NCBI RefSeq assembly: GCF_002093745.1
Contig: NZ_MTSB01000001.1
Location: forward strand, 124,001 to 188,000
Length of the DNA: 64,000 nt
DNA from: Pseudomonas graminis
GTDB lineage: Bacteria; Pseudomonadota; Gammaproteobacteria; Pseudomonadales; Pseudomonadaceae
Direction: 5' to 3'
The notes below the pieces were generated by a model. That model had not been told where the DNA came from. It saw only the letters and a program-made list of their open reading frames with translations, and ran no database searches. Of the stretch, positions 2,869 through 23,010 are shown piece after piece (positions within the stretch are counted from its first letter, which is position 1; each line of letters begins with the position of its first letter). A program made the position numbers and the translations under genes.

Positions 2869-3315
2869 ATGGACACGCTTCGGCCCTACACCCTTGCAGA
2901 CCGGGACCTCTGCCTGGCTATCTTCGACAGTAATGTTCCGCATTATTTCGACCCCATTGAACGGGAGCGATTTTCCAGCTTCCTCATGGCGCCGCTGGGG
3001 CATTATTTCGTGGTGGAACGTGATGGCGAGGTGGTCGCGTGCGGTGGATACCTGGTGCTGTCAGACCCGTCAGTGGCCGAGCTTACCTGGGGCATGGTCA
3101 AGAATGACCGCCACGGCGGCGGACTCGGCAGGTTTCTGACTCAGGCCCGGCTGGACGTCATGAAGTCCTTACCGGGTGTCACTCGTGCCTATATCAATAC
3201 CAGCCAGCGTGTTCAGGGCTTTTACTCGACTATCGGGTTCGCCGTCACCTCCGTGGAGGTCGATGGACATGGCCGTGGCATCGACAGCGTCAAGATGGAG
3301 CTGACGATCTCGTGA
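2869..3315 (+). CDS. GNAT-family N-acetyltransferase
   Basis: A 148-residue single-domain GNAT protein expected to move an acetyl group from acetyl-CoA to an amine. The N-terminus (LRPYTLADRDLCLAIFDSNVP) is the typical first strand and helix. The acetyl-CoA loop is the region NDRHGGGLGRFLTQARLDVM at residues 79-98, and the C-terminal NTSQRVQGFYSTIGFAV segment matches the family beta-alpha end. It lies 25 bases after the alcohol dehydrogenase on the same strand, so the two may be cotranscribed. The acceptor substrate is unknown. Confidence 0.88.
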   Translation: MDTLRPYTLADRDLCLAIFDSNVPHYFDPIERERFSSFLMAPLGHYFVVERDGEVVACGGYLVLSDPSVAELTWGMVKNDRHGGGLGRFLTQARLDVMKSLPGVTRAYINTSQRVQGFYSTIGFAVTSVEVDGHGRGIDSVKMELTIS

Positions 3316-3434
3316 GTGCGGGCGCCTGAACGAAGGCTGACGAAAGCTACAGAACACGCGGCATGCAGGCTGCTGCCCGTTTAGCATTCAGGCAGTCTTC
3401 GCGATCCCCGCGAATATGCCTGGATGACCTGTTC

Positions 3435-4715
3435 ATGAGGCCTTGGCCTTGCCTGGTGAAAGGCAGCGTTCAGAGACGTGGCCTTTGGCAATTCACCGTT
3501 GCCTTGCTGCTGATTCTTTCCGGCCCACTGTGTTCGCAGGCCGCGGACAGACCACAAGGCTTCGCCAAAGACGTCACCGGTGGCGGCTCCGCGACAGCGG
3601 TGCATCCCGCTACGCTTGATGACCTTCGGTCGGCGCTCTGTGCGTCTTACAACTCGCGCGGTGCCTGCACTGATGAGGCCCCGCGGGTCGTTGTGCTGGA
3701 CCATCTTTTCGACTTTCGTGGGAGCGTCGTTTCCAACGGGCGCGCCGAAACCACTGAGCCTGGCTGCATCGTCAAACCCTGTCCGCATGGCGGAGAACAA
3801 CTGGCACTCAATGGTGCCAACGGGTTCTGCCAATCAAGGCCGCCAATCATGGTGACCTACGACAATGCCGGGCTCAAGCCACTGAAAGTCGGTTCGAACA
3901 AGACGCTGATCGGGACGGGAGGCAAGGCAGGCATCAAGGGCGCCGGGCTGTTCATCGGTGACGGCGCGCATAACGTAATTGTCCGCAACCTGACACTTTC
4001 CGATATCAACCCAAGCGTCGTGTGGGGCGGAGACGCGCTCACCCTCGACAAGGCTGATGGCGTCTGGATCGACCACAACACCTTTGCGCGCATCGGACGG
4101 CAAATGATCGTGACGGGGTGGGGTGCTGCTTCACATGTCACGATATCGAGCAACGAATTCGATGGCCGAACCCCTTACTCATCGACCTGCGACGGGCATC
4201 ATTACTGGGTGTGGCTGTTCCTTGGCAGCCAGGACACGCTGACGATAGCGAGAAATTACCTGCACGACACATCCGGCAGAGCGCCGCATTCCGGGGGCAT
4301 GAACAATGCAGAAATCCGGGCGCAAGTGGTCAATAACGTCTTCCAGCGCATGACCTACCAAGGCGCAATCATGTCCCGAACCCCGTCCTCGCACGTGTTG
4401 GTGGAAGGCAACGACTTCGAAAACGTAACTCATCCGCTGTTCAACGACGTGGACCAACCGGGCACCGCATTTGCCCTGTTCGAACCCATTTCTCTTGCTG
4501 TAAATGATGCTTGCACGAGCGTGATCGGCAGAGCGTGTGTTGCAAACCAGCAACGGGTAAGCGGCGAAGACTATCGCCCTCAGGATGCTTCTGCACTGGA
4601 GGCTTTCAGGGGTTATCGACAGTATCTGGTGGTGCCGATGACGGCGGAAGAGGCCAGGGAAAAGGTGCCGGAGGCGGCGGGGGTTGGGAAGGTCGCTGTG
4701 GGTGTCACGAGATAA
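3435..4715 (+). CDS. pnl: Secreted pectin lyase (PL1)
   Basis: A 426-residue secreted enzyme predicted to cleave methyl-esterified pectin in plant cell walls by beta-elimination. After a basic N-terminal stretch there is a hydrophobic signal segment (FTVALLLILSGPLCSQA) with cleavage expected before ADRPQ. The parallel beta-helix carries VWGGDALTLDKADGVWIDHNTFARIGRQ, then STCDGHHYWVW and HDTSGRAPH. The WIDH, RIGRQ and CDGxHYW signatures match fungal and Erwinia pectin lyases more than the calcium-dependent pectate lyases. An in-frame ATG at 3363 would add 24 residues. I prefer 3435 because the signal peptide is then closer to the N-terminus, but no strong ribosome site decides it. Confidence 0.85.
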   Translation: MRPWPCLVKGSVQRRGLWQFTVALLLILSGPLCSQAADRPQGFAKDVTGGGSATAVHPATLDDLRSALCASYNSRGACTDEAPRVVVLDHLFDFRGSVVSNGRAETTEPGCIVKPCPHGGEQLALNGANGFCQSRPPIMVTYDNAGLKPLKVGSNKTLIGTGGKAGIKGAGLFIGDGAHNVIVRNLTLSDINPSVVWGGDALTLDKADGVWIDHNTFARIGRQMIVTGWGAASHVTISSNEFDGRTPYSSTCDGHHYWVWLFLGSQDTLTIARNYLHDTSGRAPHSGGMNNAEIRAQVVNNVFQRMTYQGAIMSRTPSSHVLVEGNDFENVTHPLFNDVDQPGTAFALFEPISLAVNDACTSVIGRACVANQQRVSGEDYRPQDASALEAFRGYRQYLVVPMTAEEAREKVPEAAGVGKVAVGVTR

Positions 4716-6374: not shown

Positions 6375-6401
6375 TGGAGCGGGTAGAGGGAATCGAACCC
6401 T
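6375..6401 (-). pseudogene. 3' fragment of host tRNA-Gly(CCC) left of the island
   Basis: These 27 bases are identical to 23011-23037, the 3' end of the intact tRNA-Gly (T loop, T-stem 3' side, acceptor 3' strand and encoded CCA). Identity stops at 6402. Joined through the shared GAACCCT to the 5' fragment at 23127-23180, it rebuilds one complete tRNA-Gly(CCC). It is therefore best read as the displaced 3' end of the host gene. Confidence 0.88.
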
Positions 6402-6407
6402 TATTGG
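6395..6407. other. Left attachment site of the island (core GAACCCT plus arm)
   Basis: The 7-base core GAACCCT (6395-6401) also occurs at 23127-23133. To its right, on the island side, lies TATTGG (6402-6407). This forms an inverted repeat with CCAATA on the island side of the right junction (23120-23125). Core length and dyad arms fit a tyrosine-integrase crossover site. Confidence 0.75.
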
Positions 6408-6623
6408 TCAAAGATCCTTTGAAGCGTGTATTCGTGTAGTCCTCAAACTATCTGGAACCTCAGTAAACGCTGGCGATCCTTCGATATCACTACGGTGCAC
6501 CATGGTGCATGAAGCAATCGTAAAGTTTTCGCGCCTCATCCGATGGAGATTACGCTCGAACCTAGCCGCTGAACCCTCAGCCAGCAGGAGCACGCCTATC
6601 TTTCTTTTCATCACTTCATCCAT
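6408..6623 (-). CDS. Small hypothetical protein at the island left end
   Basis: A possible 71-residue protein beginning MDEVMKRKIGVLLLAEGS. Its best support is a strong ribosome-binding site, GGAGG, five bases before the ATG at 6623. It ends in the base next to the left attachment arm. I recognise no domain and the composition is ordinary, so it may be a real small gene, the remnant of a longer one, or chance. Confidence 0.35.
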   Translation of the reverse strand: MDEVMKRKIGVLLLAEGSAARFERNLHRMRRENFTIASCTMVHRSDIEGSPAFTEVPDSLRTTRIHASKDL

Positions 6624-6973
6624 ACCTACCTCCGTAAGTCGATTGAAATGCTTCGTTGATGTCGGAGCTTCGATCTGACTAACGCCGTTTTTTCTGAGGC
6701 TGCATAAGGGGGTCGATTTTTTGCAAATTTGGAGGATAACGCCAAAGGCTTCAAAGAGGACGTATTAAAAGGGCATCTTGGGTCTGTACCGATGGCTGGG
6801 CCGAAGCGGCATCTCGACGCCCATCTAATACCTCGGCTATCACCCGATGGGTGATTGGAGAGTTCGTATGCGGTCGTAGATCAATGAGTTTTGCCGATGG
6901 TTTCCAAGCTCAGAGGTTGCCATCTTGGTTTAGGCGCATTGACATCATCGTCACATCTGACGATGATTGTCCC
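6624..6973. other. Island left-end non-coding stretch with possible gene remnant
   Basis: No complete gene is seen. An open stretch from about 6707 to 6856 on the + strand reads ...NLEDNAKGFKEDVL KGHLGSVP..., which is protein-like but has no good start. It could be the tail of a lost gene. The region must also hold the promoter for the methylase-glycosylase pair that follows. Confidence 0.3.
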
Positions 6974-7651
6974 ATGAAATATCCAGGTGGGAAGGGCAAG
7001 TGCTACCAGCGCTTGATTAATTTGATGCCCCCGCATCAGACGTACATCGAATCGCACCTAGGTGCGGGCGCGGTCATGCGCCACAAGAAACCTGCAGCTC
7101 GCAACATTGGGATTGACCTTGATCCTGCCGTTCAGGGGGCTTGGTCTAGCCAAGCCCGAGATCGTCTGGAGCTCGTACAGGACGATGCTACGAGTTATCT
7201 AAGCTCATTCCCTTACCAAGGGAATGAGCTGATCTATGCTGATCCACCGTACCTAACTCAAACACGACGTCGTCCCAAAATCTATCGATTCGAGTATGAC
7301 CAGACCCAGCACGAGTCGCTGCTCCAAACACTGCGCAGCGTGCCATGTAAGGTCATGATTTCCGGGTACGACAGCCTGCTGTACAACGAGGTGCTCCACG
7401 GATGGAGGAAGGTTACATTCATGGCCAAAACGCACGTCGATCTCAGGGAAGAATGCGTATGGATGAACTACGCTGCCCCTGAAGAACTGCACGACAGTCG
7501 TTACTTGGGCGACACGTTCCGTGAACGTCAGACCATTGCCCGACGCCAGGCGCGCCTTCGTGACCGTGTAAGAGCTATGGATCCTCTTGAGCGCAACGAC
7601 TTCATGCGCTGGATTTCGCAGGCCTATGGCTCCACCCAGGAGGCCGTGTGA
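6974..7651 (+). CDS. DNA adenine methylase, D12 class (Dam-like)
   Basis: A 225-residue protein of the D12 class N6-adenine DNA methyltransferases. The order of motifs is standard: MKYPGGKGK at the very N-terminus, ESHLGAGAVMRHKKPA (SAM loop), GIDLDP, and the catalytic YADPPYL (DPPY) at about residue 95. I start it at 6974 because the family begins with xKYPGGK. The open frame reaches back to 6851, but those 41 residues are not family-like. The ribosome site is weak. It overlaps the OGG-like gene by 4 bases, so the two are surely cotranslated. The family methylates adenine. Whether this one marks self DNA, or marks a target for the paired glycosylase, is not known. Confidence 0.88.
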   Translation: MKYPGGKGKCYQRLINLMPPHQTYIESHLGAGAVMRHKKPAARNIGIDLDPAVQGAWSSQARDRLELVQDDATSYLSSFPYQGNELIYADPPYLTQTRRRPKIYRFEYDQTQHESLLQTLRSVPCKVMISGYDSLLYNEVLHGWRKVTFMAKTHVDLREECVWMNYAAPEELHDSRYLGDTFRERQTIARRQARLRDRVRAMDPLERNDFMRWISQAYGSTQEAV

Positions 7652-8421
7652 TGCAGAGCGGCGTGGTTTTCATAGATTCTCAAATTTACAGCCGGGAGTT
7701 CCCTGACGCTCAAAGTGAAGTCTTGCCTGGTGTAACGTGGGGCTTAATTGAGGCTTTTCCCTCTCCCGCATACTGGGCTTATCAAGCGTGGGCGAATGAT
7801 CAAGAGCCCGAGCCACTCAACTACCACCTCGGTGATTCGCTCGTGGAAGAGGTGGGGGCGTGCCTTCTAGGTGGTCACGGTATTCCGTCACAGGTGGGGC
7901 TTGCGGCGTTTGCTCATCTTCGGGCTCTCGGGGTCTTCGAAGGTAGTGCTCCGTCTGAGACTCAGATTCTGGAGTGGCTGAGCGCGCCCTTGAGTGTTGG
8001 TAGCCGGGCCATTCGCTATCGGTTTGCAAAACAGAAAGCACGGTATCTGCATGCGGCCCTGGTCTCACTGGAGGGAGGCAATATCCCTACTCACTCTGGT
8101 AGAGCACTTAGGGACTGGCTGCTCAGGCTGCCAGGCATCGGATACAAAACGGCGTCGTGGATTGCGCGAAACTGGCTGGATGCCGATGACGTGGCCATTC
8201 TCGACATCCATATTCTCAGAGCTGGCGCGCTAGCTGGATTCTTCTCCGTAGGCCTGACTGTAGAGCGTCACTACCTCAAACTGGAGCAGGAGTTTCTTGC
8301 CCTGAGTAATGCCATCGGCGTTCGGCCATCAAAACTCGACGCCCTGATGTGGTACCAGATGATGTCGGCTACAGATCTCGTGCATGGCCTGATGGGGCAC
8401 ACTGGGAAGAAAGCCGCTTAA
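7648..8421 (+). CDS. OGG-like HhH-GPD DNA glycosylase/lyase
   Basis: A 257-residue helix-hairpin-helix protein. The catalytic core is LLRLPGIGYKTASWIARNWLDADDVAILDIHILRAG, at residues about 164-199. It contains the hairpin Lys used by bifunctional glycosylase/lyases (OGG1-type) and the downstream Asp of the DIHI motif. The start is GTG at 7648, overlapping the methylase stop; an ATG at 7651 is an alternative. OGG-fold proteins of this size occur as Cap11 in type IV CBASS and elsewhere in defence loci. Its last 4 bases overlap the end of the oppositely oriented nitroreductase gene. Base specificity cannot be read from sequence; a modified or mismatched base is expected. Confidence 0.87.
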   Translation: MMQSGVVFIDSQIYSREFPDAQSEVLPGVTWGLIEAFPSPAYWAYQAWANDQEPEPLNYHLGDSLVEEVGACLLGGHGIPSQVGLAAFAHLRALGVFEGSAPSETQILEWLSAPLSVGSRAIRYRFAKQKARYLHAALVSLEGGNIPTHSGRALRDWLLRLPGIGYKTASWIARNWLDADDVAILDIHILRAGALAGFFSVGLTVERHYLKLEQEFLALSNAIGVRPSKLDALMWYQMMSATDLVHGLMGHTGKKAA

Positions 8422-9101
8422 TCGGGCTTGTCTGATCCACCGATCAAGGCGACTCCTACTCCGCTGAGAATTCCAATGGGTGCCAGCTGGCTGGCCCACG
8501 GCTCTCCCGTGACACCCAGCGGGCAAAAGGTGCAGCCGAGAGCCTCAGCAACCATTGCCATGATCGCCAGTAACACACCTGCATCACGCCAGATCAGGCT
8601 CTCACCTTGTTGGTATTTCGCAAACGTCTTGCCCGGCTCTGCGACCAATAACAACCGTGTGCCTTCCCCGATGGCCAATGTGGCCTCGCACTGCTGATTC
8701 ATCTTCGCGAAGAGCTCAGACGAACCTGGGATGTCATGAAATCCGTGGCGGCGGCTGTCATAGCGTTGCCAGCTGCCCGTCGCATGGTGATCGACCAGGA
8801 TGTGGATGGGATGAATGGCGCCTGCGGACAAAGCAGGGCGACGTTCCAGCTCGAACCCGTATTCGGAGTCAGCAACTGCCTGCGTACGCGCACAGCGCCA
8901 TAGCAGTTCACTAAGCTCTGTTTTGCTCAATGCGTTGAACGAGCGCTTCGACCGTCTGCGTTCAAGCAAGTGGAGAAGCCCTGCATCGGCTCGGGCTACT
9001 GGTTGCTTAAGTGGATGAAACTGGGCCTCAGTCCATACGAAGGGTTCGTAATAGCCTGGGACTGCACTGACGATGGGGCTATCAAGAATGATCTTGCTCA
9101 T
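8418..9101 (-). CDS. SagB-like nitroreductase-family flavoprotein
   Basis: A 227-residue FMN-dependent oxidoreductase of the nitroreductase superfamily. It shows LLERRRSKRSF (FMN phosphate-binding start), SAGAIHPIHILV, and the C-terminal DAGVLLAIMAMVAEALGCTFCPLG helix. The SAGAxHP pattern is that of SagB-type enzymes, which oxidise azoline rings in peptide natural products. The start at 9101 is preferred to the longer frame because it overlaps the QueC-like gene by 20 bases. It is the last gene of the leftward operon. A role in oxidising a product made by the QueC-like or deoxyribosyltransferase steps is inference. Confidence 0.83.
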   Translation of the reverse strand: MSKIILDSPIVSAVPGYYEPFVWTEAQFHPLKQPVARADAGLLHLLERRRSKRSFNALSKTELSELLWRCARTQAVADSEYGFELERRPALSAGAIHPIHILVDHHATGSWQRYDSRRHGFHDIPGSSELFAKMNQQCEATLAIGEGTRLLLVAEPGKTFAKYQQGESLIWRDAGVLLAIMAMVAEALGCTFCPLGVTGEPWASQLAPIGILSGVGVALIGGSDKPD

Positions 9102-9684
9102 GTTCCAGCTCGTGCCAGACTTCAAAGTACTTGTTGCAGCCTCGACAGTTGCCGCATGCCACGTTGGATTTATGGCAACTGTGAGCCCAAGCCAGTACGG
9201 AAGATGGCACGCCGGCGACCCGCACTAGCTCAGTGGTACTTAATCCAATGGCCGGTGCTTCAACCGTCATTTCACCCTCCTGAATAACCATGAGCTGATT
9301 GATAGCCTCGACAAATTCAGGTGTACCGTCGCGGTGCGATCCGTCAGATTTCACCGTTCCCAGATAGAGCGTTTTGACGCCCAGACTGATAGCTTTCATC
9401 GACGCCAAGGTGACGAGCATCTGGTTTCGATACGGCCACCAATCACTTGCCGGCGCATGAGCATCCGCCCGACCTCCCGCCATGTCACCAGAGCCCACGG
9501 AGCGGCAATCAATGGAAATGACATGGTGCTCAATCTGGAGCTGCTTACAGATCGCTGAAGAAGCTGAGATTTCTGCTTCTGCTGCGAGTTGGCCGTAATT
9601 CAGGGTGATGCCGACTTCTGGGTGTAGCCACCAGGCGATGGCGAGGGAGTCCATGCCACCTGATAGCAGAAGGGCTCGTTTCAT
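9082..9684 (-). CDS. QueC-like PP-loop ATPase
   Basis: A 200-residue enzyme of the QueC (7-cyano-7-deazaguanine synthase) family. The PP-loop is LLSGGMDSLAIAW at residues 6-18. YRNQMLVTLASMKAISLG follows near residue 85, with a C-terminal zinc site of the form C-x8-C-x2-C-x2-C (SCHKSNVACGNCRGCNK). True QueC makes preQ0 from a carboxy-deazaguanine and ammonia for queuosine. Here no queD/queE neighbours are present and the gene sits in an island. That matches the separate QueC-like branch found in Qat and type IV CBASS, where the enzyme modifies a protein or other partner. It overlaps the PfkB-NDT gene by 4 bases. The family is sure; substrates are unknown. Confidence 0.9.
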   Translation of the reverse strand: MKRALLLSGGMDSLAIAWWLHPEVGITLNYGQLAAEAEISASSAICKQLQIEHHVISIDCRSVGSGDMAGGRADAHAPASDWWPYRNQMLVTLASMKAISLGVKTLYLGTVKSDGSHRDGTPEFVEAINQLMVIQEGEMTVEAPAIGLSTTELVRVAGVPSSVLAWAHSCHKSNVACGNCRGCNKYFEVWHELEHEQDHS

Positions 9685-10883
9685 AGCTCGGTCGTTTGCC
9701 AGAATGTTTGGTAGATCGCGGTGACGAAATCATTCGACATGACGCAGTCACTCCCCTCCATCATCTTCTGGCTTTCCTCAGACTCATTTTCCACATACAC
9801 CACTACCGGCTTCTTCAGGGCGCGAGCATAGCCGATCTCGTATATCGTCCCAGCGTCTAGGCCGTCCCCTATGGCAAGCATCAGATCGCAGGCATGGATC
9901 GCATCGATATCCTTCTGGACGACCTCTTCGGCTCGCCCCAGTCCAACATCATGCACGGGAGAAAACACTCGCAGGCCCATATCGAGAAGTAGACCTCGCG
10001 CTTCCTCAACCAGCCACATCTGTGCCAACGAGAAGAACGGGCCTGCCAAGTAAACCAGTGGTGCTGGCTTCGAGGTCTGCTTGAAAACGGCAGGTGCAGG
10101 AGCATAGCGAGCGAGTTCTACTTGAGAGCCAAAGCCCATGGTCTTGCAGTAATAAGCGGTAGCGCGAGACGCTTGAGTTGCTGCGTCCAAGGGGGAGAGT
10201 TCTTGCTCCAGCCAGAAAAAAGCGAAGCTTGCAACGAACACATCCCCAGATCCAATCTTCCATACGTGCGGTGTGACGAAAGGCGGGATGAGGTGCGTTT
10301 GGTCGTCATGATGTAACAGCGCACCCAGTGGGCCCATTTTTATGATGACAATTTCGGCTTGCTGCGATCGCGCCAAGGCAGCAGCCATGTCAGCTGAACT
10401 GAGCTCTGTACTGCCATGCAAAGCTTCTGCTTCGCTTCTGTTAAGGATCAGAGCAAGGTGCTTAGCGCTTGAGCCGTTATGATTGAAAGGTAGCGGATCC
10501 TTCGAAGTTTGTGGGTCGTAAACCGCGCTTTCAGCATGGACAATGCAATCACCTTCCAAATAGCCAAAGCGAACCACCTTGTCAGCGTTCACGCTCAGCG
10601 GTGGCATAGTTTCAGGGATCGGGTAGATTGCCGGTTTGCTAAGGCCATGGGTATAGCGGAAATGAGGGCTTTCTTTGGTCGCCATCACATCCATCTCAAA
10701 TCCTTCGAGCGCGGCTCGCTGGAGGAAAATCGCCTTCGCAGTTTCATCGGCATATGTGTGTAATTTTGCCATACCGCCCAGCCGAGCTATCGCAGTAGCA
10801 GCCCTGCCACCCGAACCAAACAACTCTTGCCACATGGGATGCATGCACTGCTCATAGTAGATTCCACCTGCTATCGTGATCAC
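9681..10883 (-). CDS. PfkB-family kinase fused to nucleoside 2-deoxyribosyltransferase
   Basis: A 400-residue two-domain protein. Residues 1 to about 255 are a PfkB/ribokinase-like sugar or nucleoside kinase, with GSGGRAATAIARLGG near residue 23 and the catalytic-site signature IGSGDVFVASFAFFW near residue 210. Residues about 270-395 are a nucleoside 2-deoxyribosyltransferase-like domain: LVYLAGPFFSLAQ, FSPVHDVG, DIDAIHACDLMLAIGDGLDAGTIYEIGYA. The nucleophile Glu is kept in the GTIYEIGYA loop. The pairing suggests a nucleoside or base is exchanged or hydrolysed and a sugar or nucleoside phosphorylated in one pathway. It lies 2 bases after the small gene and overlaps the QueC-like gene by 4. 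Confidence 0.9.
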   Translation of the reverse strand: MITIAGGIYYEQCMHPMWQELFGSGGRAATAIARLGGMAKLHTYADETAKAIFLQRAALEGFEMDVMATKESPHFRYTHGLSKPAIYPIPETMPPLSVNADKVVRFGYLEGDCIVHAESAVYDPQTSKDPLPFNHNGSSAKHLALILNRSEAEALHGSTELSSADMAAALARSQQAEIVIIKMGPLGALLHHDDQTHLIPPFVTPHVWKIGSGDVFVASFAFFWLEQELSPLDAATQASRATAYYCKTMGFGSQVELARYAPAPAVFKQTSKPAPLVYLAGPFFSLAQMWLVEEARGLLLDMGLRVFSPVHDVGLGRAEEVVQKDIDAIHACDLMLAIGDGLDAGTIYEIGYARALKKPVVVYVENESEESQKMMEGSDCVMSNDFVTAIYQTFWQTTEL

Positions 10884-10885
10884 GA

Positions 10886-11227
10886 TCAGCCCTCCTTGAT
10901 CGGTGAAATTCTCAGGACAACTTGAGCCCCGTTTTTGTCGACTACAGCCGCTCTATAACTGGTACCGCTTTCGATGCATGCGATGAGCCGAAGTACTCTC
11001 GGAGACGCAATGCCGCCCGCAACTTGGCCTTGCCATAGCGCGACGGCAACGAGCTGGCCATTCAGGTTGCTCAGGCCAATATCCAAAACGTCATCAATGT
11101 TTATCTGATCGACAACATCTGGTTTAGGAGATGCAAGCTGGGTCTGCAGATACAGCATGTCGCATGCTGTTTCAGTCGGACTTCCCGAGGTGTAATCGCG
11201 AAAAAGCTTCCCATCTGTACCTGACAT
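10886..11227 (-). CDS. Small protein of unknown function, first gene of the QueC operon
   Basis: A 113-residue acidic-to-neutral soluble protein beginning MSGTDGKLFRDYTSG. I recognise no domain. Residues about 45-110 look like a small all-beta unit (DVLDIGLSNLNGQLVAVALWQGQ). The start at 11227 is preferred to 11242 because GGTGGGG lies at good distance. It is the promoter-proximal gene, separated by 2 bases from the PfkB-NDT gene, so it is certainly part of the operon. Because QueC-like enzymes in type IV CBASS act on a protein partner, this could be such a partner, but nothing in the sequence proves it. Confidence 0.7.
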   Translation of the reverse strand: MSGTDGKLFRDYTSGSPTETACDMLYLQTQLASPKPDVVDQINIDDVLDIGLSNLNGQLVAVALWQGQVAGGIASPRVLRLIACIESGTSYRAAVVDKNGAQVVLRISPIKEG

Positions 11228-11451
11228 TCCGTTCCCCACCATCCCTATGTGAACCAGCGCAGTGCTTGCTTCGCGTTCTAGCTCATTCTGTTGACAGCTT
11301 CCCGCTTGATGCTAGAGTGCTGGCACTTTACCCCTCTCGGATCCAATTTGCCAATAGTTGAAAATGGCCTGGAAACTCCGACAGGGCGCCAGCTCGCCGG
11401 CTTGATCAACACCCCGGTTTAGCTCAGATTCGTGCTTACACAGGGTAGTGT

Positions 11452-13401
11452 GTGCTGATGTCGAAGATCCTGGATTTTGAAATTGAGAATTACAAAGGTA
11501 TTGTCAAAACTAAGATCGAGCTTGCAGGGAGGATCGATAGTCCGGTCGTTACGCTGATTGGACTAAATGAGAGTGGAAAGACCACCATCCTTGAAGCTAT
11601 CTCACAATTCGTGAGCAGCGATAGATCTGTCTCCAGCCTTTATTTTTTTAGCCCTGAGAATAAGGATGAGTTTTCATTCATTCCCGTGAGCCAAAAAGGG
11701 GGATTCACTGGGGAAGTCTCGATCGCTGCCACTGTCGTGCTCGACACATCTGAGGTCGAAGAGATCTCCGCCACTGGAGAAAGCCTGGGTGTGGAGGTGG
11801 ATACGGCGGCTTTGTCAGCACCGTTCAAAATCATTAAGGCGATTCGTTTTAAGAACAGCGAGGCGCAGTCGAGCAGCGGAAGCTTGGGGTTTGATCTCAA
11901 AACAAGACTGCCGGGCACTCCGGATTATGAGATCTATGCCCAGCCAGACTCAGTATCAGAGAACCTCTGGGTAATAGCCGCCGACTTGATCGCGAGCAAG
12001 ATCCCAACGGTGGCTTACTTCCCCACCTTCCTGATCCACGTCCCAGAGGAAATTTTGCTGGTTCATCGCCCTGGCGAGAAGTACGAAACACGGCATTATC
12101 GCGAGATCGTAGAACGAATCATCCGGTTCGCGGGCTATGACGTCGAAGAGAACGTCAACAAGGTCTTGAGGCAGTTTCGAGATCAGGCCAAGGGAAATTG
12201 GATTGAGGACTTTCGCCGAAGCGAGGAGGGGAGCCGAGTTGACGCGGTTTTCAAACGAATGTCGGGCGTGCTCTCCACTGAGGTCATCGGCGGTTGGAGG
12301 CGTGTGTTTTCACGAGATACCACCGCCAAGAGAATTGAATTGAAATGGTCGATTTCCGATGGTGAAAAGCCTTCGGTCATGGTCAGCTTTATGGTCAGCA
12401 GTGGTGATTCCGACTACCAGATCAGCGAACGTTCTGTTGGCTTTCGTTGGTTCTTCACATTTTTGCTGTTGACGAGGTTCAAGTCAGCGGATGATAAGCG
12501 CCAGATGATCTACGCCTTTGACGAGCCAGCAGCCAACCTCCATTCCCGCGCCCAGGTGGAATTACTGAGCTATTTTGCGCTAATGACGAGTGCCGGCGAC
12601 AAGATCATCTACTCAACGCACAGCCATCACATGGTCGATCCGCGTTGGCTATCCAGCGCCTACATCATCGAAAACCGAGCCGCTCGTAGCGACGATTCTG
12701 ACGGATATGAGCTGGAGTTCCTGCCGGCGGAAATCAACGCCGTTAAGTACAAGCAATTCCTCGCGATGCAGGGCACCCGACATCACTACTTCCAGCCCGT
12801 CATTGATCGTCTGCAATACGTGGTGCCAGAGATCGTGGGCGACAAACCTTGCCTCATTGTTGAAGGCATATCTGATTACTATGCCCTCAAGGCCGCGTCG
12901 TTAACCTTGAGCAGCGATCTGGAATTCAACATCATCCCAGGCGTTGGGTCGAGCGCCGCGGGCCCCTTGATCAGCTTGCTGTTGGGGCGCGGAGAACATT
13001 TTATCGTCCTACTTGATGATGATCTGGAAGGTCGTCAGGCGCGTGATCGGTATCGTGAACAATGGGTACTGTCAGACCAGGTTGTTATTACCTACGCAGA
13101 CATTGATCCGGGATTTGCTAGCAAGGCTCTGGAAGGCGTATTGGGCAATGAAAGCCAAGAGATTGCCAAGCGCAGCCTGAATATAAGCTCGCGTCCATCG
13201 AAGAGCCAATACGGCCTCCTCTTGGCCGAGCATTACTATAAGGGCGATCCGGCTGGCGTCATTTTCTCAGATGAGGGGCTTGCGAACCTGCAGAAGGTGC
13301 TGGGGTTTTTAGGTCACCAATTCAAGAGTTTCTCAGCTGAATTCGTTCCGATTCCGACAGTAGAGACGGATTCTGCCTCAATGCGCGCAGATTCGACTTG
13401 A
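11452..13401 (+). CDS. OLD-family ATPase with TOPRIM nuclease domain
   Basis: A 649-residue protein of the OLD (overcoming lysogenization defect) family. The N-terminal ABC-type ATPase has Walker A GLNESGKTTILEAI near residue 37 and Walker B FDEPAANLHSRAQ near residue 358, followed by an H-loop region STHSHHM. A C-terminal TOPRIM domain begins at LIVEGISDYYALKA near residue 467, with the metal-binding FIVLLDDDLEGRQA about 60 residues later. OLD proteins are DNA nucleases in anti-phage systems. No UvrD-like helicase (GajB) is next to it, so Gabija is not supported; it resembles single-gene class 1 OLD. The start may be GTG 11452 (AGGG six bases before) or ATG 11458. It is divergent from the QueC operon across a 209-base gap. 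Confidence 0.88.
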   Translation: MLMSKILDFEIENYKGIVKTKIELAGRIDSPVVTLIGLNESGKTTILEAISQFVSSDRSVSSLYFFSPENKDEFSFIPVSQKGGFTGEVSIAATVVLDTSEVEEISATGESLGVEVDTAALSAPFKIIKAIRFKNSEAQSSSGSLGFDLKTRLPGTPDYEIYAQPDSVSENLWVIAADLIASKIPTVAYFPTFLIHVPEEILLVHRPGEKYETRHYREIVERIIRFAGYDVEENVNKVLRQFRDQAKGNWIEDFRRSEEGSRVDAVFKRMSGVLSTEVIGGWRRVFSRDTTAKRIELKWSISDGEKPSVMVSFMVSSGDSDYQISERSVGFRWFFTFLLLTRFKSADDKRQMIYAFDEPAANLHSRAQVELLSYFALMTSAGDKIIYSTHSHHMVDPRWLSSAYIIENRAARSDDSDGYELEFLPAEINAVKYKQFLAMQGTRHHYFQPVIDRLQYVVPEIVGDKPCLIVEGISDYYALKAASLTLSSDLEFNIIPGVGSSAAGPLISLLLGRGEHFIVLLDDDLEGRQARDRYREQWVLSDQVVITYADIDPGFASKALEGVLGNESQEIAKRSLNISSRPSKSQYGLLLAEHYYKGDPAGVIFSDEGLANLQKVLGFLGHQFKSFSAEFVPIPTVETDSASMRADST

Positions 13402-13719
13402 ATGCACACTGAGCTCATTTGAAAGAAGCCGGATTCGTTTCGAACAACAAAAAATTTTTGCGTGGAGTGAAATCTGGTTTTTGCCAGAGATGGTTGGTCG
13501 ACCGATCTGGTAACGCCTCCCCCCTGTAGGCCGCCGCTTTATGAAAAGTATATTGGCTATGCCGTACCCTGACCTAAGTGTCGCCTTTCGATACATTAAT
13601 CCCCTTAAAATAGACTCAAGGGTGGCTTTGGGCTACTATGTTAGCATTTGGGATTAGAGTTGACTCTGCGCTTGAAGATCCGCGCAGGCTAGCTTTAACT
13701 AGGTGCGTACCTTTCGATT
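13402..13719. other. AT-rich intergenic region in the island
   Basis: The 318 bases between the OLD gene and the GrpB fusion hold no gene I can support. Base composition changes sharply to AT-rich towards the right, which marks a likely junction between pieces of different origin. Confidence 0.4.
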
Positions 13720-15105
13720 ATGCAAGTAAATAAAATGAAAAGTGTAGAGATTAGCGAGCATTCAGTTGATTGGGGAAAAGCTTTTGCTAAGGAGGCTCAA
13801 GTAATAAGGGACAGATTGCATGATCTCTCGTTTTTCATTCATCATGTAGGATCAACATCAGTACCTGGGCTGTCCGCAAAACCTATAATTGATATTTTAA
13901 TATCTCTACAGGACTGGAAAGCGTCTGGAGACGTAGTGAATAATATTCGAGATCTAGGTTACCAAGTCGGAGAGAGTGATTTGGATACCCCGCGTTATTT
14001 TTTAGTTAACTATTCGTCCCCTGATAGCATTGGTTATCATATTCATATTTGCAAGCCCCAAAGTACCTGGGAGAATGATATGATAAATTTTAGAGATGAG
14101 TTGCGTATAAACGATAAACTCGCTTGCGATTACGCGAGGCTCAAGGAAGGTTTGGCCAAAATTTATAAAAATGATATTGATTCCTATGCTCTGGGTAAAA
14201 AGGAGTTTATCGAAAAAGCATTGAAAAAACTAGCACCTAAGTTTAGCATAAATAAACTACTTACACACCAAAACTTAGAGCTCGACAAGGCCGATCGCTA
14301 CGGTAGATCTATGATGTGGCTACAGTTGTCTATGGCTCTTACTGCAGCATTCTCAGTGTATGTTGATCAAGGCTGGCTGCTTTTGTTAATAGCACTCATG
14401 GGATTTGGGTTTCTGGCTGCATGGTTAATGCTAAGCCAGTCTCAACAAAAGCATCGTGCAGCGGGAGATCAAGCCCGGCGAGTAGTATTATTTATGAGTG
14501 GCTTAGGCAAAAAACCATCTCTAGAAGAACAGCAGCGAATTCTTAGAAAGTTTATTCTTCCGCTATCAGGTGCTGACTGGAACTTAGAGGAAAGTCGTTT
14601 CGCCAGTCGTGAATTTCCAGGCTATCAAAGGTTGGCAGAGATTATTGAGGAGTCTGCATTTTGGACTGGTGATCTCCATCATGCCAGTGCCGGATTGATG
14701 AGTAAATTTCTGTGGGGCTCTTTATTGTGCTCCTTTGTAGGGAGTATCGCTGCTATCGTGCTTGCCCCTCCTAATGACCTGATAGCATTTAATAGGGCTC
14801 TCATTGCTGTAATGTTGTTCTTTATTTCGTCCGATATGCTTGGGTTGTATTTCGCATATAAAAAATCAGCAACTTCTTTAGATGAAATATTTCATAGAGT
14901 AGAGATCTCTGCTCTGAGAGGCTATCCGGATGCGGATATTTTGCTATTAGCCTCTGACTACAATGCTGTGATCGAGAACTCTCCATCTCCGCTTAGTTTT
15001 TTTCTCAAGTCTAGAACGAATAAGCTGAGCCTGCGGTGGGCAATTTATAAAGAGATGAAACGAGCTGGTGCTGCGAAAGAAATTGAAGGTCGCCGCTCTT
15101 ACTGA
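13720..15105 (+). CDS. GrpB-type nucleotidyltransferase fused to four-TM effector-like module
   Basis: A 461-residue fusion. Residues 8-168 are a GrpB-family domain (polymerase-beta superfamily), with HHVGSTSVPGLSAKPIIDIL at 41-60 holding the GS and Asp nucleotidyl motif, and PRYFLVNY and YHIHICKP further on. Residues 185-461 carry four predicted membrane helices in two pairs (about 199-216, 219-238, 329-349, 358-379) joined by a soluble loop, with a soluble tail. This 2+2 layout resembles the SLATT/S-4TM pore-like effectors that accompany nucleotide-signalling defence enzymes. The gene is much more AT-rich than its neighbours. No clear ribosome site; an ATG at 13735 is an alternative start. 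Nucleotide synthesis and pore formation are inference. Confidence 0.75.
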   Translation: MQVNKMKSVEISEHSVDWGKAFAKEAQVIRDRLHDLSFFIHHVGSTSVPGLSAKPIIDILISLQDWKASGDVVNNIRDLGYQVGESDLDTPRYFLVNYSSPDSIGYHIHICKPQSTWENDMINFRDELRINDKLACDYARLKEGLAKIYKNDIDSYALGKKEFIEKALKKLAPKFSINKLLTHQNLELDKADRYGRSMMWLQLSMALTAAFSVYVDQGWLLLLIALMGFGFLAAWLMLSQSQQKHRAAGDQARRVVLFMSGLGKKPSLEEQQRILRKFILPLSGADWNLEESRFASREFPGYQRLAEIIEESAFWTGDLHHASAGLMSKFLWGSLLCSFVGSIAAIVLAPPNDLIAFNRALIAVMLFFISSDMLGLYFAYKKSATSLDEIFHRVEISALRGYPDADILLLASDYNAVIENSPSPLSFFLKSRTNKLSLRWAIYKEMKRAGAAKEIEGRRSY

Positions 15106-15247
15106 TGAGCTGTTGTGGGGCGGTATTGGTTCTGTGTATGGAATTCACGGCATCACGTTGAGCCAGCCGGTAACTTGGAAGCCATAGTTGAACTCAGCCA
15201 GGTACGAGGTGTTTTGCCTCAGTGTGGTAAGCCTCTACTCAAAGGTG

Positions 15248-16870
15248 TCATTCAACCAGCGGCACGATCCGCTGCAAAGTCCCAGCGCTCGCAACCCTCG
15301 GATACCCCTCAATCTCATACACACAATGTTCAATCACACGAACTCCTTGCGCTTGCAAGTTTCTGACGAACGCTGGCCCCGCTACCGTTTCGCCTACCCC
15401 GTGCTTGACGGAGGTGAAGATCAACACTGGTGGGAGGGCGACGCCGAGCGCTTCATGGGGGCTCAGTGCAAACCCCGCAGCCCACGAGTACCTTGCAAAC
15501 TCGTCGGCTTTGATCGTCCGATATGTCTGCGACTGTAATACAAAAAGCTCACTTGGCTTGACATTCATAACGCGAATCAGGGCGTCATCCTGGTGCCGGA
15601 GTCCACGTGGTGAGAGCCGAATCAGATCCCCCTTTTTTGGCACTTTCGTATCTGCTGGAATCGAGCTGTACCGCCGGTTAAGCAATAGCGAAATATCTGG
15701 ACAGTCACATATCACTGCAATGCGCTGAACATCCTCTACATCGATCCGCGCCTCAATCTCGGAAAGCTCCTGACAGCAACGCTGGATCGGCAACGCACCT
15801 TGTTGGCGCACTCGGACATCGGCTGTTGGGAAGTAACGAGACATCTGCTCAACGGCAGCACTAGCCGGCAGGGTGGTATCGATCAGAGCAACCAGATTTA
15901 CTAAATTTCCCAGCTTTGCCAACAGTTGAAATATCTCAAACAAAGGCAGTTGATTGAACTGGTGGATAACGACCGCCTGCCCGTGGGCGCCGTCGGTGAT
16001 TTCGTAAAACGGAACATGGGTAACACCCAATTCATCCTCATAAGTTACACACCTGGCTCTGGCAGCTGTCACTGATGTCGGAACGGTGTTCGTCAGGAGC
16101 TCAGAGACAGCACAGTACTGTTGGGTGAATTCGAAGGCTGCCTTGATATCGTCATAACGCACAAGCACCACTCGCGAGTTAAGGGCCAGTGAAACTTCGT
16201 CGAGCATGTCGTGAGCAAAGAGATCTGGAGTGAATGCACTCAGGCGGCTGAAAGCATGTTCAATCTCAAGCTGGCTGTAGGCTGGGTGAAAAGGGCCGCA
16301 TATCCTGGTCAGATGGTGACGTACCGCGTTCTGCAGGCAATAGTTACTTTGGAGTTGAATCAGACCATCCGTCGCGACGACCCAGCCATGGCGCTCACAT
16401 TCGCGAACGGCCTCAAGCACTTCATCCAACCTCCCTCCAGCCCTAAGACGCCCAGCAACCCCACCCCCGTCAACATTACCACCCCCATAAATTGAAGCGA
16501 CCTCAACAACGGTATTGCCTGCCAGAGACAGCGCTTCCAGATACCGCAGCAGCCTTACGGCATGCTCTAAGCCCGGATTCTGCTCGAAGCCGGATAGCAC
16601 CGCTGAAACGTCATCGGCCTCAAGAAACGGCAGTGCCACGAGGGGGGTGGCCAGGAGGGCACTGGCGTCCACCGGCAGAGTTATCATCATCCGCTCTGCA
16701 GTGGCCTGAAGAAATCCTTGACGCATCACTTCGAACACCGATGCCTGGAAGGCCATGTAGTCTTCCCACGCGAATTGCAGCTGGGCCGTCTGGGCATCGC
16801 CGAGATACTTTCCAAGGACGAAGCGACTCTCATGCTCAAGCAGTTGTCGCACGCTGCGCCGTTCGGCCAA
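15248..16870 (-). CDS. Unknown 540-residue island protein, possibly N-terminally cut
   Basis: A soluble protein of about 540 residues with no domain I can name. A helix-turn segment (GGRLDEVLEAVRECERHGWVVATDGLIQLQ, residues about 143-172) looks like a winged helix. The middle has alternating beta/alpha stretches (VVLVRYDDIKAAF, AVVIHQFNQLPLFEIFQLL, LVNLVALIDTTLP). No ATG is available: the longest frame starts at TTG 16870, with an in-frame stop 24 bases upstream. It begins 9 bases after the point where the integrase breaks off, so a deletion may have removed the true N-terminus. It runs opposite to its neighbours at both sides. Confidence 0.6.
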   Translation of the reverse strand: MAERRSVRQLLEHESRFVLGKYLGDAQTAQLQFAWEDYMAFQASVFEVMRQGFLQATAERMMITLPVDASALLATPLVALPFLEADDVSAVLSGFEQNPGLEHAVRLLRYLEALSLAGNTVVEVASIYGGGNVDGGGVAGRLRAGGRLDEVLEAVRECERHGWVVATDGLIQLQSNYCLQNAVRHHLTRICGPFHPAYSQLEIEHAFSRLSAFTPDLFAHDMLDEVSLALNSRVVLVRYDDIKAAFEFTQQYCAVSELLTNTVPTSVTAARARCVTYEDELGVTHVPFYEITDGAHGQAVVIHQFNQLPLFEIFQLLAKLGNLVNLVALIDTTLPASAAVEQMSRYFPTADVRVRQQGALPIQRCCQELSEIEARIDVEDVQRIAVICDCPDISLLLNRRYSSIPADTKVPKKGDLIRLSPRGLRHQDDALIRVMNVKPSELFVLQSQTYRTIKADEFARYSWAAGFALSPHEALGVALPPVLIFTSVKHGVGETVAGPAFVRNLQAQGVRVIEHCVYEIEGYPRVASAGTLQRIVPLVE

Positions 16871-16878
16871 GGCAGCTT

Positions 16879-17553
16879 CTACGAGCTGGGTTCAAAATTG
16901 CGGACATGGGGTACCTCACTGCTGAGGATTTCATTTGCTCGCAGCCCAGACTCCAACAGAAGAAAAATACTATGGTCGCGCAGACTACTTGTGCGTTTGA
17001 CAACCTGCCTGAGTGCCTCAATCTCCTTCTGGCTAATCGAGTTCTCGGGACGCCCGAAAGGGGTGGGTATTTCCGTTCTTATCATTGGATCTGTGTACAT
17101 CGGAGTTGTCTTTGCAGGGCAGGTAAGATTCACTGGGCAGACTTGACCTGGTGTCGGGTCGAGCGTTAACGGCTTGGTGATTAGCGATGATGTGGCGCTT
17201 GAAGCCGCCATTTTGAAGGCGGTCAAGGCTGTCAACGGAAGTGTTTCTACGAAAGCTTCCAGGCGGCTAAGAGTGACGGATATCTCATTGGCGGATTGGA
17301 GAGCAGAAGCAAGTGCAGCCACAATCCCGGCGCGCGCGTCTCTTTCGGAAGGTGTCGGCGTTTCAGGAGGGCAGTTTAGGGACGAACTTCTGAGCTCGTA
17401 ATAGTCCAGATACCCCAAGCCTTTAGAAAGGATTTCGTTGGCTAGCGTTTGCTGGATAGAGGGCTGGACTGGCCACCTGTTTTTGAGGCTTTTGGCGAGC
17501 TTCTTGAAGGCTGCATTGGGCAGCAAATCTTGGGCATAGATCGGAAGGCGCAT
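16879..17553 (-). pseudogene. Truncated tyrosine-recombinase integrase
   Basis: A 224-residue remnant. It starts MRLPIYAQDLLPNAAFKKLAKSL behind GGAG seven bases upstream. This N-terminus is typical of large Pseudomonas island integrases, which run to several hundred residues. The catalytic domain begins at ISQKEIEALRQVV and reaches the first catalytic arginine in LLLESGLRANEIL, then ends in a short unrelated tail. The HxxR, His/Trp and Tyr nucleophile boxes are absent. The frame dies 8 bases before the start of the 540-residue protein, consistent with a deletion fusing the two. It is probably inactive. It lies 5.5 kb from the tRNA junction rather than beside it, which also points to rearrangement. 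Confidence 0.78.
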
Positions 17554-17870
17554 GGCAATTCTCCAATACGTCAGGGTGTCGGCTTTCCGCTGACTATCGT
17601 CGAAGTGCGTGCGAAAAGAAGGGAGAAACACCTGATGCGCAAAGGCTTTGCTGACCGACCGCTCGATTCAGATAAATCGAAGCTCGACGGTATCACGCTG
17701 CTAAAGCTTCATCAACCTCCCGATCTGACACTGCGCTGATGCTGTGGCAACGGGGAGGCATTTACTTGCAGTAGTGGCTTTGGCGTGAGGCCAGGAAGGC
17801 GGTCTTTCCTCTTGGGCGTGTCAGTAATAGGATACGGACGTGTTAGTTTCTGGCAGCTAAGGACAGCGAC
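17554..17870. other. Intergenic region between integrase remnant and RloC-like gene
   Basis: These 317 bases separate two divergent genes and should contain both promoters. I see no gene or RNA. The last part has an AAGGA six bases before the GTG start at 17871. Confidence 0.4.
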
Positions 17871-20009: not shown

Positions 20010-20156
20010 TCACCCGAACTGGCCCGCCAGCAGAGGTGTGAACAGCTTGGCCGCAAAAAGCTAGGCGCTGTCAGAAACGCCACATAGAAATTTGAGCTGG
20101 ACTCCTCTATCAGTTGCTACATTGTCACTAACCTTGCCAGGAAGATCTAAATTCGA

Positions 20157-21458
20157 ATGTATAATTTTCTTGTGACTTCTCAGGATGGTGCGTGGGATCA
20201 GCCTGGTTATGAATACGATAAGAGTCGCTTCCTGGAGTACACAAGCGATGACATCGCTGCGAGCTTTAAGGAACTGAAAGAGCCTCAGCTTGCGGCGCTG
20301 ATGGAGCTTCCGTGCTTATTCGCTTATGAAGGCACCCGTCAATCCCTGAGAGTGGGGAGGTTGGAGGTAAAACTTCGCAACAACGGCAAGACTTTGCTCA
20401 TTCGACCAACCATCGACGATCGTATTGGCCCCATTGAATTCGCGCAGATCAAGCCTCTGCAAGCGGCTCTCGATATCCGCGATTGGGAAATCAATCGGAC
20501 GCACTGGGCAGTTAAGGACGAGGATCTGCTGGACGTCCTCCATCAAGCCCAGCTAGTACCTGACGGGTTGATCCGCTCCAAGGTGACGAAGGAAGACCTG
20601 CCCGCGACCACGCCACCCCAGATCCATGCTGACAGCGTCGGAGCTTTTATTGAGCAGGTATTTCAACTCAATCATGGTGGGCGTGAGGTTTTTTATCGGG
20701 GCCACTCCAATAGCAAAAAATATCGGTTGGAACCATCAATATTTCGCAAAGATCCACACGGGAATTTTGTTCACCGGGACACTGAAGATCGGATGTACCG
20801 GGAGCTTCTGGTTTCCAATTCAGTGGATTTCAGCGGAGATATTTATACGCTCGATCGCCTCGTACGCATGCAGCATTACTCGTTGCCAACGAGACTGCTC
20901 GATATCACATCGAACCCGTTGATCGGCTTGTACTTTTGCTGCAAGAGTAACCTCGATGAAGACGGAGAGGTCATAGTCCTCTCTATGGACGCCGATCATA
21001 TCAAATACTTTGATTCAGATACTGCAAGCTGTATTGCTAACCTCTCCCGTCTGTCCAAGAGCGTCAGAGACTCTATCTCATTCGATGCTGCCGGCCTGGA
21101 AGATTTCAATAGTCAGCGGCCACTACGGCAGTTGCTTCATTTCATCAAAGAGGAAAAGCCATTCTTTGAGCCCAGGCTGGAGCCTGAGCATCTTCGATCC
21201 GTTCTGTGTGTGAAAGGAAAGCACACCAACAGCAGGATCTCATTTCAGTCCGGCGCGTTTCTGCTGTTCGGGGATGAAGCGGTGCTGGATGAAGAGGGTA
21301 CGGAAGATATTACGCTTCATCGCATAGCGATAACGAACAAGAGGAATGTGTTGAAGGAGTTGGATCGCCTGAACATCAATGAGAGTACGGTGTTTCCGTA
21401 TATAGAGAGTTCGGCGAAGTACATTGCTCAAAAATTTGCCTTCCAGGCTCGTGTCTGA
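20157..21458 (+). CDS. FRG-domain protein
   Basis: A 433-residue protein with an FRG domain, named for its Phe-Arg-Gly motif, at residues about 160-270. It shows GGREVFYRGHSN, YRLEPSIFRKDP, and MQHYSLPTRLLDITSNPLIGLYFCC. FRG domains are common as single-gene or partnered toxins in bacterial defence and conflict loci; the biochemical activity is not settled. The N-terminal 150 residues have no domain I recognise. It follows the RloC-like gene after 147 bases on the same strand, so it may be part of the same transcription unit. An AGGAAG lies about 12 bases before the ATG. Confidence 0.82.
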   Translation: MYNFLVTSQDGAWDQPGYEYDKSRFLEYTSDDIAASFKELKEPQLAALMELPCLFAYEGTRQSLRVGRLEVKLRNNGKTLLIRPTIDDRIGPIEFAQIKPLQAALDIRDWEINRTHWAVKDEDLLDVLHQAQLVPDGLIRSKVTKEDLPATTPPQIHADSVGAFIEQVFQLNHGGREVFYRGHSNSKKYRLEPSIFRKDPHGNFVHRDTEDRMYRELLVSNSVDFSGDIYTLDRLVRMQHYSLPTRLLDITSNPLIGLYFCCKSNLDEDGEVIVLSMDADHIKYFDSDTASCIANLSRLSKSVRDSISFDAAGLEDFNSQRPLRQLLHFIKEEKPFFEPRLEPEHLRSVLCVKGKHTNSRISFQSGAFLLFGDEAVLDEEGTEDITLHRIAITNKRNVLKELDRLNINESTVFPYIESSAKYIAQKFAFQARV

Positions 21459-21676
21459 TTGAGCTCGTCAGCGGGCTAATCACTGTCCCCGAAAACTCGG
21501 AACCGTATCGAGGTGGCAGGGATACTCGTGGGATGCCTCGACTGATGCCCCGCGCTACAAGGCATTTGTATTACTAGACGCTTTTGGCGCTGTAAATCAT
21601 CTGCGCGCTTTGGCTGCTCGTTCGGCCCTAAAATGCTGGTGGCCTGGTGGCCCGGCTGCTTGGTATTGCCCAGGGC

Positions 21677-22570: not shown

Positions 22571-23010
22571 CCTGTGCAACCTTCCTGAATCACCTGATCG
22601 GCCTATTGACGAGGGGGGACGAGAGCAATCAACCTCACTTGAGCGCTTCAATAGTGCGCTCGACGTTGATCGTATCGCCATCTGAAAGCGCCGCCAACGC
22701 CTTGGCAGGTTTGGCATTGCGAATGCTTGGCTTATGGAGAAAGAAACGATGGTGGTGGCTTGGTTTTCAGGCACAGATAGGTGTGCACCGTTCAAGCTCA
22801 GGAGGTATGTCGGCGGATCAGACTTTAGGGTTTTATTGAGTGAGCTGAGGCGGAAGTGGGTCAGGTAAGACGCCGTACTGGGGGAATCGACGGTGCACCA
22901 AATTTTCGGGGCTTTTTGGGGAGGCTGATGGGGGCGCTGCGAGGAGGTCTCGACAGGCCTAGGCGGTAGGGAAAAACTGCCTGGAACGCCCGGAATCATT
23001 GGCTAGAAGG
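22571..23010. other. Island right-end region without a supported gene
   Basis: About 440 bases between the GIY-YIG gene and the tRNA. Short open frames occur on both strands, but none has a ribosome site or protein-like composition. It should contain the promoter for the GIY-YIG gene. Confidence 0.4.

Follow-up and report, generated by a model that had tools for sequence, protein, structure and literature searches.

The module described here comprises six genes at positions 6974-11227 of a 64,000-nt window of the Pseudomonas graminis genome (GCF_002093745.1, contig NZ_MTSB01000001.1, positions 124,001-188,000 of the forward strand). Locus coordinates are window positions, L-numbers denote the loci fetched in the comparison (98 in all) and G-numbers denote genomes. 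The core of the module is a small protein, a fusion of a PfkB kinase with a nucleoside deoxyribosyltransferase (NDT) and a QueC-like ATP-dependent ligase; an OGG-type glycosylase is nearly constant, and a SagB-like flavoprotein and a D12-class methyltransferase are accessories. The module is real, widespread yet sporadic, and island-borne. On balance, we lean towards reading it as a horizontally moving anti-phage system that may perform a third QueC-type N-terminal modification, akin to the chemistry of type IV CBASS and Qat.

Organization of the six genes

Two tightly packed units face each other at the locus. On the forward strand, the gene for a D12-class adenine-N6 methyltransferase (6974-7651, 225 amino acids; Pfam MethyltransfD12, E 7.8e-8) shares 4 bases with that for an OGG-type helix-hairpin-helix DNA glycosylase/lyase (7648-8421, 257 amino acids; Ogg-HhH, E 2.8e-12). 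The reverse-strand unit begins with the small gene (10886-11227, 113 amino acids), whose end at 10886 leaves a two-base gap to the PfkB-NDT gene (9681-10883, 400 amino acids; PfkB E 3.1e-11, NDT E 1.9e-18). The latter overlaps by 4 bases the QueC-like gene (9082-9684, 200 amino acids; QueC E 2.8e-25), which is of the Cluster 4 type of Libby 2026. Last in the unit is the SagB-like gene (8418-9125, 235 amino acids from a TTG start, with an alternative ATG at 9101), which overlaps the QueC-like gene by 44 bases with the TTG start or 20 with the ATG and meets the OGG gene tail to tail with a 4-base overlap. The six reading frames lie where an initial annotation of this DNA had placed them, and the OGG/SagB-like junction bears out the two opposing units with a 4-base overlap that it described. 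Its family names for D12, OGG, QueC, PfkB and NDT are likewise backed by Pfam matches (E 7.8e-8 to 2.8e-25). The SagB-like label stands in part: TIGR03605 matched at E 3.4e-12, but the score of 46.2 bits is below the curated cut-off of 78.4 and marks the protein as a relative only.

Conservation of the module across genomes

A species-genome collection was scanned by matching exact peptide words from the QueC-like sequence, which gave 53 loci. One of these (L055), a fragment match with no further hit, was left out, and 52 were confirmed, near-identical loci (e.g. L044-L049) being counted singly. When only the window proteins served as queries, PfkB-NDT was found at all 52 loci, OGG at 50, the SagB-like protein at 41, the small protein at 38 and D12 at 30, a co-occurrence well beyond what chance would give. 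When more queries were used within 5 kb of the QueC-like gene, PfkB-NDT was again present at 52 loci, OGG at 50, SagB-like at 40, D12 at 30 and a dGTPase at 8; a shorter PfkB-NDT frame in L032 (256 amino acids) and a cut D12 gene in L028 were both scored as present. The small protein was now counted at 52 of 52 loci, a figure that includes self-matches and, for L046, a second gene copy; 45 were recognized by similarity to other loci and seven (L036, L044-L049) as the frame upstream of PfkB-NDT. The hosts belong to the gamma-, beta- and alphaproteobacteria, the Bacteroidota and the Verrucomicrobia. The core can also be duplicated: L024 carries two small/QueC-like sets, and in the Methylobacterium-type loci L046-L049 a second tailed protein and a second PfkB-NDT follow the QueC-like gene.

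The QueC-like protein matched 26 of 72,556 plasmid records, two of them at 26% identity and resembling ordinary QueC. All 14 of the matching records that we examined encode the small protein and PfkB-NDT, and on a Synechocystis and three haloarchaeal plasmids the module is shrunk to the small protein, PfkB-NDT and the QueC-like enzyme. Among 398 same-genus genomes, which may overlap with those behind the 52 loci, the QueC-like gene occurs in 13, and the same 13 carry an intact small gene beside it; in a 14th genome, the small gene is present as a remnant interrupted by two stops. The initial annotation had named co-occurrence in unrelated places as the test of its proposal, and this is what the 52 loci and the 13 genus genomes reveal. 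In the phage collection, no relatives of the small protein were found at 0.01. The QueC-like protein had 62 phage matches, all below 60% identity (26-30% for the 15 listed), and one viral contig (L098) carries a 42% relative.

The small protein has a disordered tail and a HIRAN-type fold

Consistent with its description as unknown in the initial annotation, the small protein had no Pfam match at E 1 and none among the other profile families tried, and a sequence profile search against the PDB gave nothing useful (best E 1.4). Its structure model (pLDDT 84) consists of a disordered M-S-G tail at residues 1-18, where pLDDT falls below 50, followed by a domain for which the fold search indicated a HIRAN-type fold. 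The motif M-[SGTC]-G begins 64 of 66 small proteins, a count that is partly circular because starts were chosen at an M-x-G codon. An independent figure comes from the starts set by the database gene caller, with which 103 of 120 relatives begin M[ST]G; among the other 17, the motif lies inside the called frame in 8 and is lacking in 9. Members L052, L053, L060 and L063 have MGGS or MGGG tails. The small protein thus has the feature expected of a partner for QueC modification, namely a disordered N-terminus with a small residue and Gly after the Met. On the haloarchaeal plasmids L060, L061 and L063, the tailed protein contains two copies of the domain, which in L060 stand behind an acidic tail of just under 190 residues.

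The QueC-like enzyme and its possible base

The ATP loop, the RN motif and four Cys are conserved in an alignment of 65 QueC-like sequences. Measured against the canonical QueC motifs (YxQxHxxE, VPxRN and YPDC), the window protein keeps YGQ and RN and lacks YPDC. Its PDB relatives are QueC and Cap9 (9nto, E 7e-5), the QueC-family enzyme of type IV CBASS. P. graminis itself encodes a second, canonical-type QueC elsewhere (L002). We consider it probable that the QueC-like enzyme acts on the small protein by modifying its N-terminal tail.

To look at the supply of the Cap9 base, 7-carboxy-7-deazaguanine (CDG), we surveyed host genomes for the queuosine-pathway genes. A canonical-scoring QueC is present in 26 of 30 genomes carrying the system. 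Sixteen of these genomes were taken further, and QueD was found in 14; the two exceptions, A. segnis HK_296 and Rhizobium sp. BK251, also have no canonical QueC, and their results with the QueE probe (TIGR03365) were 23 bits and no match. These are not proof of QueE absence because the probe is weak: its cut-off was passed by 2 of the 16 genomes, and G010, a genome with canonical QueC, reached only 27.6 bits. All four genomes without a canonical-scoring QueC have a VUT-type transporter and a TGT, and among ten genomes tested these were found in eight and ten, respectively. The gaps in the two genomes, together with VUT and TGT, suggest that the base is imported or that it is not CDG. CDG as the universal substrate was dropped, since it does not fully fit the QueC, QueD and QueE survey. 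That the attached base is a 7-deazaguanine of some kind has a little under an even chance in our estimation. On the Roseobacter plasmids L059 and L064, a VUT-type gene (queuosine-precursor transporter family) directly follows the SagB-like gene; the E. coli VUT protein YhhQ has been tied to preQ0 transport (PMC5372724).

Conserved motifs in the other enzymes

The PfkB motifs NxxE and GSGD and the NDT residues D325 and E349 are kept in at least 97% of 63 PfkB-NDT sequences, and NDT D343 in 90-97%; we take all of these to have the usual functional roles of the two families. In OGG, K167 and D186, which we take to be catalytic, are conserved in at least 97% of 59 sequences, and the PDB relatives of the window protein are Ogg/AP lyases. 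The SagB-like protein is related to CyaGox and to a SagB-type dehydrogenase (~1e-6), and the D12 motif DPPY is conserved in 33 aligned sequences. The PDB relatives of the enzymes agree with these family assignments.

Relation to described systems

In type IV CBASS, the CD-NTase begins MGGS, and its N-terminal Gly receives CDG from Cap9 (Gao 2026, PMC13279940; Wassarman 2025, PMC11996544). The module shares with that system a QueC-family enzyme, a Gly-tailed partner and a base-handling glycosyl enzyme, and the CD-NTase of Pseudanabaena L094 begins MGGSGGGFF, like the MGGS and MGGG tails of module members. It differs in having NDT-PfkB and a HIRAN-type partner, and in the absence of CD-NTase and TGT near window-type loci. 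A tblastn search of the 98 loci with the L094 CD-NTase at 1e-4 returned only L094, TGT queries from L089 and L094 found only L089-L091 and L094 among the same loci, and none of the six window proteins matched a cyclase in Pfam or PADLOC. The window QueC-like protein is 22% identical to the L094 Cap9, homologous but distant. We take Cap11 to be the OGG-like protein of type IV CBASS; the window OGG matched no PADLOC model at 0.1.

Qat defence is similar in pairing a QueC-family enzyme with a small partner that has a disordered tail: it needs the disordered MGTS tail of QatB, for which modification has been proposed and not reconstituted (Gao 2026, PMC13279940). QatC, however, has ~400 amino acids with extensions (Libby 2026, PMC13329287) against 200 here, and QatB is helical (Gao 2026), in contrast to the beta-rich HIRAN-type fold of the small protein. 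None of the six proteins matched the QatA KAP ATPase or the QatD TatD nuclease (Pfam, PADLOC). Retron Eco1 likewise has an NDT-like effector (PMC12405507), so that an NDT-like domain in a defence system has a precedent; here, the NDT is fused to PfkB, and no reverse transcriptase was found among the six proteins with Pfam.

The QueC-like protein and its PfkB-NDT neighbour correspond to Cluster 4 of PF06508, in which PfkB-NDT is found in ~89% of neighbourhoods and purine salvage was proposed (Libby 2026). The window enzyme matches the cluster motif CH(x)5CxxCxGCxK letter for letter and has YGQ(x)5E where (x)6 is printed, and PfkB-NDT is the neighbour at 52 of 52 loci. The tailed HIRAN-type protein, OGG, SagB, D12 and defence context were not found described in the available text of that source. 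The initial annotation knew of no described system with this gene set. For the full set, we likewise found no description in a literature search covering mainly open-access papers and few preprints, but the QueC/PfkB-NDT pair is already in print (Libby 2026).

A TIR-TGT variant bridges the module and type IV CBASS

The Rhizobium/Agrobacterium plasmids L089-L091 carry PfkB-(NDT), TIR-TGT, OGG, QueC and TIR genes, with the frames overlapping or closely spaced. The TIR-TGT protein matches TIR_2 (E 4.8e-13); the TGT match of 0.0014 is below the cut-off, and the best PDB match is Cap10 (6e-8). The variant QueC matches Cap9 at E 1.3e-13, and the window OGG and QueC-like proteins are 28% and 24% identical, respectively, to its OGG and QueC. 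The last TIR protein starts with MGGGSSGSW or MGGGGGGDG. In this variant, a TIR protein with a Gly tail takes the position of the cyclase among enzymes resembling Cap9 and Cap10. In the NDT half of L089-L091, the Y-x-A-x-P-F, D325 and G-T positions are lost and Pfam finds no NDT domain, as if TGT had taken over. The initial annotation had likened the module to type IV CBASS with the deoxyribosyltransferase in the place of Cap10, and this analogy gains support from a bridge variant with a decayed NDT. Two further plasmids, L095 (Neotabrizicola) and L097 (Cupriavidus), encode a PfkB-NDT of 443 amino acids, a QueC and, read by eye, a glycosylase-like helix-hairpin-helix protein; L097 only also encodes an MGSSGSG-tailed protein of 125 amino acids at 3275-3652 of that locus.

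The module lies in an island and among defence genes

The module is located inside a 16.6-kb island (6375-23010) between a tRNA-Gly (CCC) gene (23011-23084, reverse strand; ARAGORN) and, at the far boundary, a 27-bp direct repeat of the 3' end of the tRNA (6375-6401, forward strand), an exact copy of 23011-23037. The G+C content of the island is 0.523, versus 0.574 and 0.600 outside. The listed same-species genome (G087) has neither the QueC-like nor the small gene; it does have the junction on its tRNA side, and the stretch left of the island was not found at that place, suggesting that foreign DNA may extend further left. Pfam recognized no integrase among the island genes scanned (6375-23010). 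Adjoining the tRNA is a gene (21677-22999, reverse strand) whose product combines an RNase H1 N-terminal domain with a GIY-YIG domain. Several defence-like genes are also found in the island; they encode an AriA/OLD-like ATPase, a PDC-S06 ATPase, a PDC-S15 FRG-domain protein and a GrpB-4TM protein that matches a model of 4TM effectors. Two adjacent proteins (15248-16870, 540 amino acids; 16879-17631, 250 amino acids; both reverse strand) had no Pfam match at 1e-5 and no PADLOC match at 1e-10. The AriA/OLD-like gene (11455-13401, forward strand) adjoins the small gene, and a 60-64% relative is in the same place in four Pseudomonas loci (L003-L006).

We then compared the flanks of the module with those of canonical queC. 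The module scan covered 245 of 300 frames from 36 of the 52 loci (37 had been chosen), short frames, all of L048, the OLD-like gene of L003 and frames of second core copies having been dropped. For the control, 125 of the 189 frames adjoining canonical queC genes in 20 of 30 host genomes were picked at random. PADLOC figures are models at 1e-10, several of which may match one protein. The module flanks, in two batches of 112 and 133 proteins, matched 98 and 115 PADLOC families; the 125 control proteins matched 7, one of them BrxL. Among the listed matches in module flanks are DRT3, ThsB, BilA-D, type IV restriction, AbiEi, BrxL and PDC-S28, as well as CBASS cyclases with CapP, which are separate neighbours of the module. 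A dGTPase is the commonest PADLOC neighbour listed (3 + 3 proteins); it occurs near the module in L058, L065, L092 and L056 besides the eight genome loci noted above, and on the Moraxella plasmid L058 it overlaps the stop of the QueC-like gene, in the place of the SagB-like gene. Tn7-like TniB and TniQ appear 3 + 3 times each, and phage integrase three times, among the listed flank Pfam families. This context makes it very probable that the module is a defence system. Outside the island, a guanidine-II riboswitch (34759-34806) and a guanidine-I riboswitch (38927-39029), both on the reverse strand, lie ~4 kb apart.

Proposed mechanism and alternatives

From the computed gene set, conservation, tail, fold, mobility, surroundings and bridge variant, we infer both the defence function of the module and its chemistry. 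In the mechanism we propose, removal of the initiator Met would expose the flexible Ser-Gly tail of the small protein (Gly-Gly in some members). The QueC-like enzyme would use ATP to activate a carboxylated, probably purine-like base and link it by an amide bond to this N-terminus. PfkB-NDT would stand in the place of Cap10: the NDT half would carry out a deoxyribosyl exchange with the base borne by the protein, or with a related base in free form, and the kinase half would phosphorylate the nucleoside. Through the HIRAN-type domain, the conjugate may be brought to DNA; the simplest targets would be forks or 3' ends in phage DNA under replication. The OGG-type glycosylase/lyase could act on the bond between base and sugar in DNA, either to attack or to erase. 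The part of exchangeable helper or effector would fall to SagB, D12, dGTPase or an Mrr-type nuclease. Action of the NDT on the protein-base conjugate itself is a tentative element that we think rather unlikely. More doubtful still is a version in which a protein-linked deoxynucleotide is built, with the base from the QueC-like enzyme, deoxyribose from NDT and phosphate from PfkB, and is delivered by the HIRAN-type domain to 3' DNA ends, where it would be joined to or block phage DNA, OGG resolving or mis-resolving the bond.

Several observations weigh against this reading. The motif N-x-[YF]-D-x-[NY], which we take to be the usual HIRAN motif, occurs in 0 of 88 small proteins, and Pfam is blind to the domain even at E 1. 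The tail motif is missing in L043 and L062, and the residue after the Met is Ser in 55 of 63 proteins, not Gly as modified by Cap9. HRDG replaces YPDC at the substrate site in the 65 QueC-like sequences, suggesting that the base may differ from CDG, and judging by gene content 2 of 16 host genomes appear to lack CDG synthesis. The second-copy PfkB-NDT of L046 has lost D325 and E349 without a TGT, and the full-length TIR-TGT protein, carried by 13 plasmid records, represents a single clade.

A different division of labour, in which PfkB-NDT is the effector and depletes nucleotides or NAD, with the QueC-like enzyme and small protein serving only as its switch, appears improbable to us. The effector of retron Eco1 (PMC12405507) would be a parallel, and the frequency of dGTPase beside the module (8 of 52 loci) and its replacement of SagB on the Moraxella plasmid would fit nucleotide depletion. 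However, the intact kinase fusion and the loss of NDT residues in the TIR-TGT variant suit an exchange role better, and OGG would be left without a job.

We regard it as unlikely that the genes serve purine or 7-deazapurine nucleoside salvage or the synthesis of a modified deoxynucleotide, with the QueC-like enzyme altering a free base, NDT adding deoxyribose, PfkB phosphorylating, OGG excising the base from DNA and the small protein only a scaffold. Libby 2026 put forward salvage as the function of the QueC/PfkB-NDT pair, and the intact NDT and PfkB active sites, as well as the VUT transporter gene adjoining the module on two Roseobacter plasmids, agree with it. It leaves unexplained the conserved tail, the sporadic spread on islands and plasmids (13 of 398 genomes), the defence surroundings and the TIR-tail variant.

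The co-directional, overlapping D12 and OGG genes could instead be a base-excision restriction-modification pair parked beside a separate QueC unit, and glycosylase-type restriction enzymes exist (PMC10273834), although a term search of the available text of that source gave no helix-hairpin-helix member. The distribution makes this quite improbable, as OGG accompanies the core at 50 of 52 loci and D12 at only 30, and in other loci the small gene directly follows a co-oriented OGG gene (e.g. L038, L040, L043 and L059). Maturation of the small Gly-rich protein into a secreted peptide toxin by the SagB-like enzyme, suggested by the SagB-family resemblance, is very improbable given the conserved folded domain of the small protein, the 12 of 52 loci with no SagB-like gene within 5 kb and the lack of a peptide exporter or protease among the listed flank Pfam families (25 of 83 and 25 of 107).

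Protein modification by the QueC family has been shown in type IV CBASS and is suspected in Qat, and the role of the attached base is unsettled. The anti-phage system that we propose would add a third, broad family, found among the loci fetched in Proteobacteria, Bacteroidota, Verrucomicrobia, one cyanobacterium and haloarchaea. A protein-linked deoxynucleotide, if true, would be an immune chemistry that we did not find described in the literature searched. With a HIRAN-type or TIR partner and with NDT and TGT apparently interchangeable, so broad a family would make the action of a glycosyl enzyme on a protein-borne base directly testable. Overall, a gene family that was lately assigned to purine salvage can be re-read as probable immunity.

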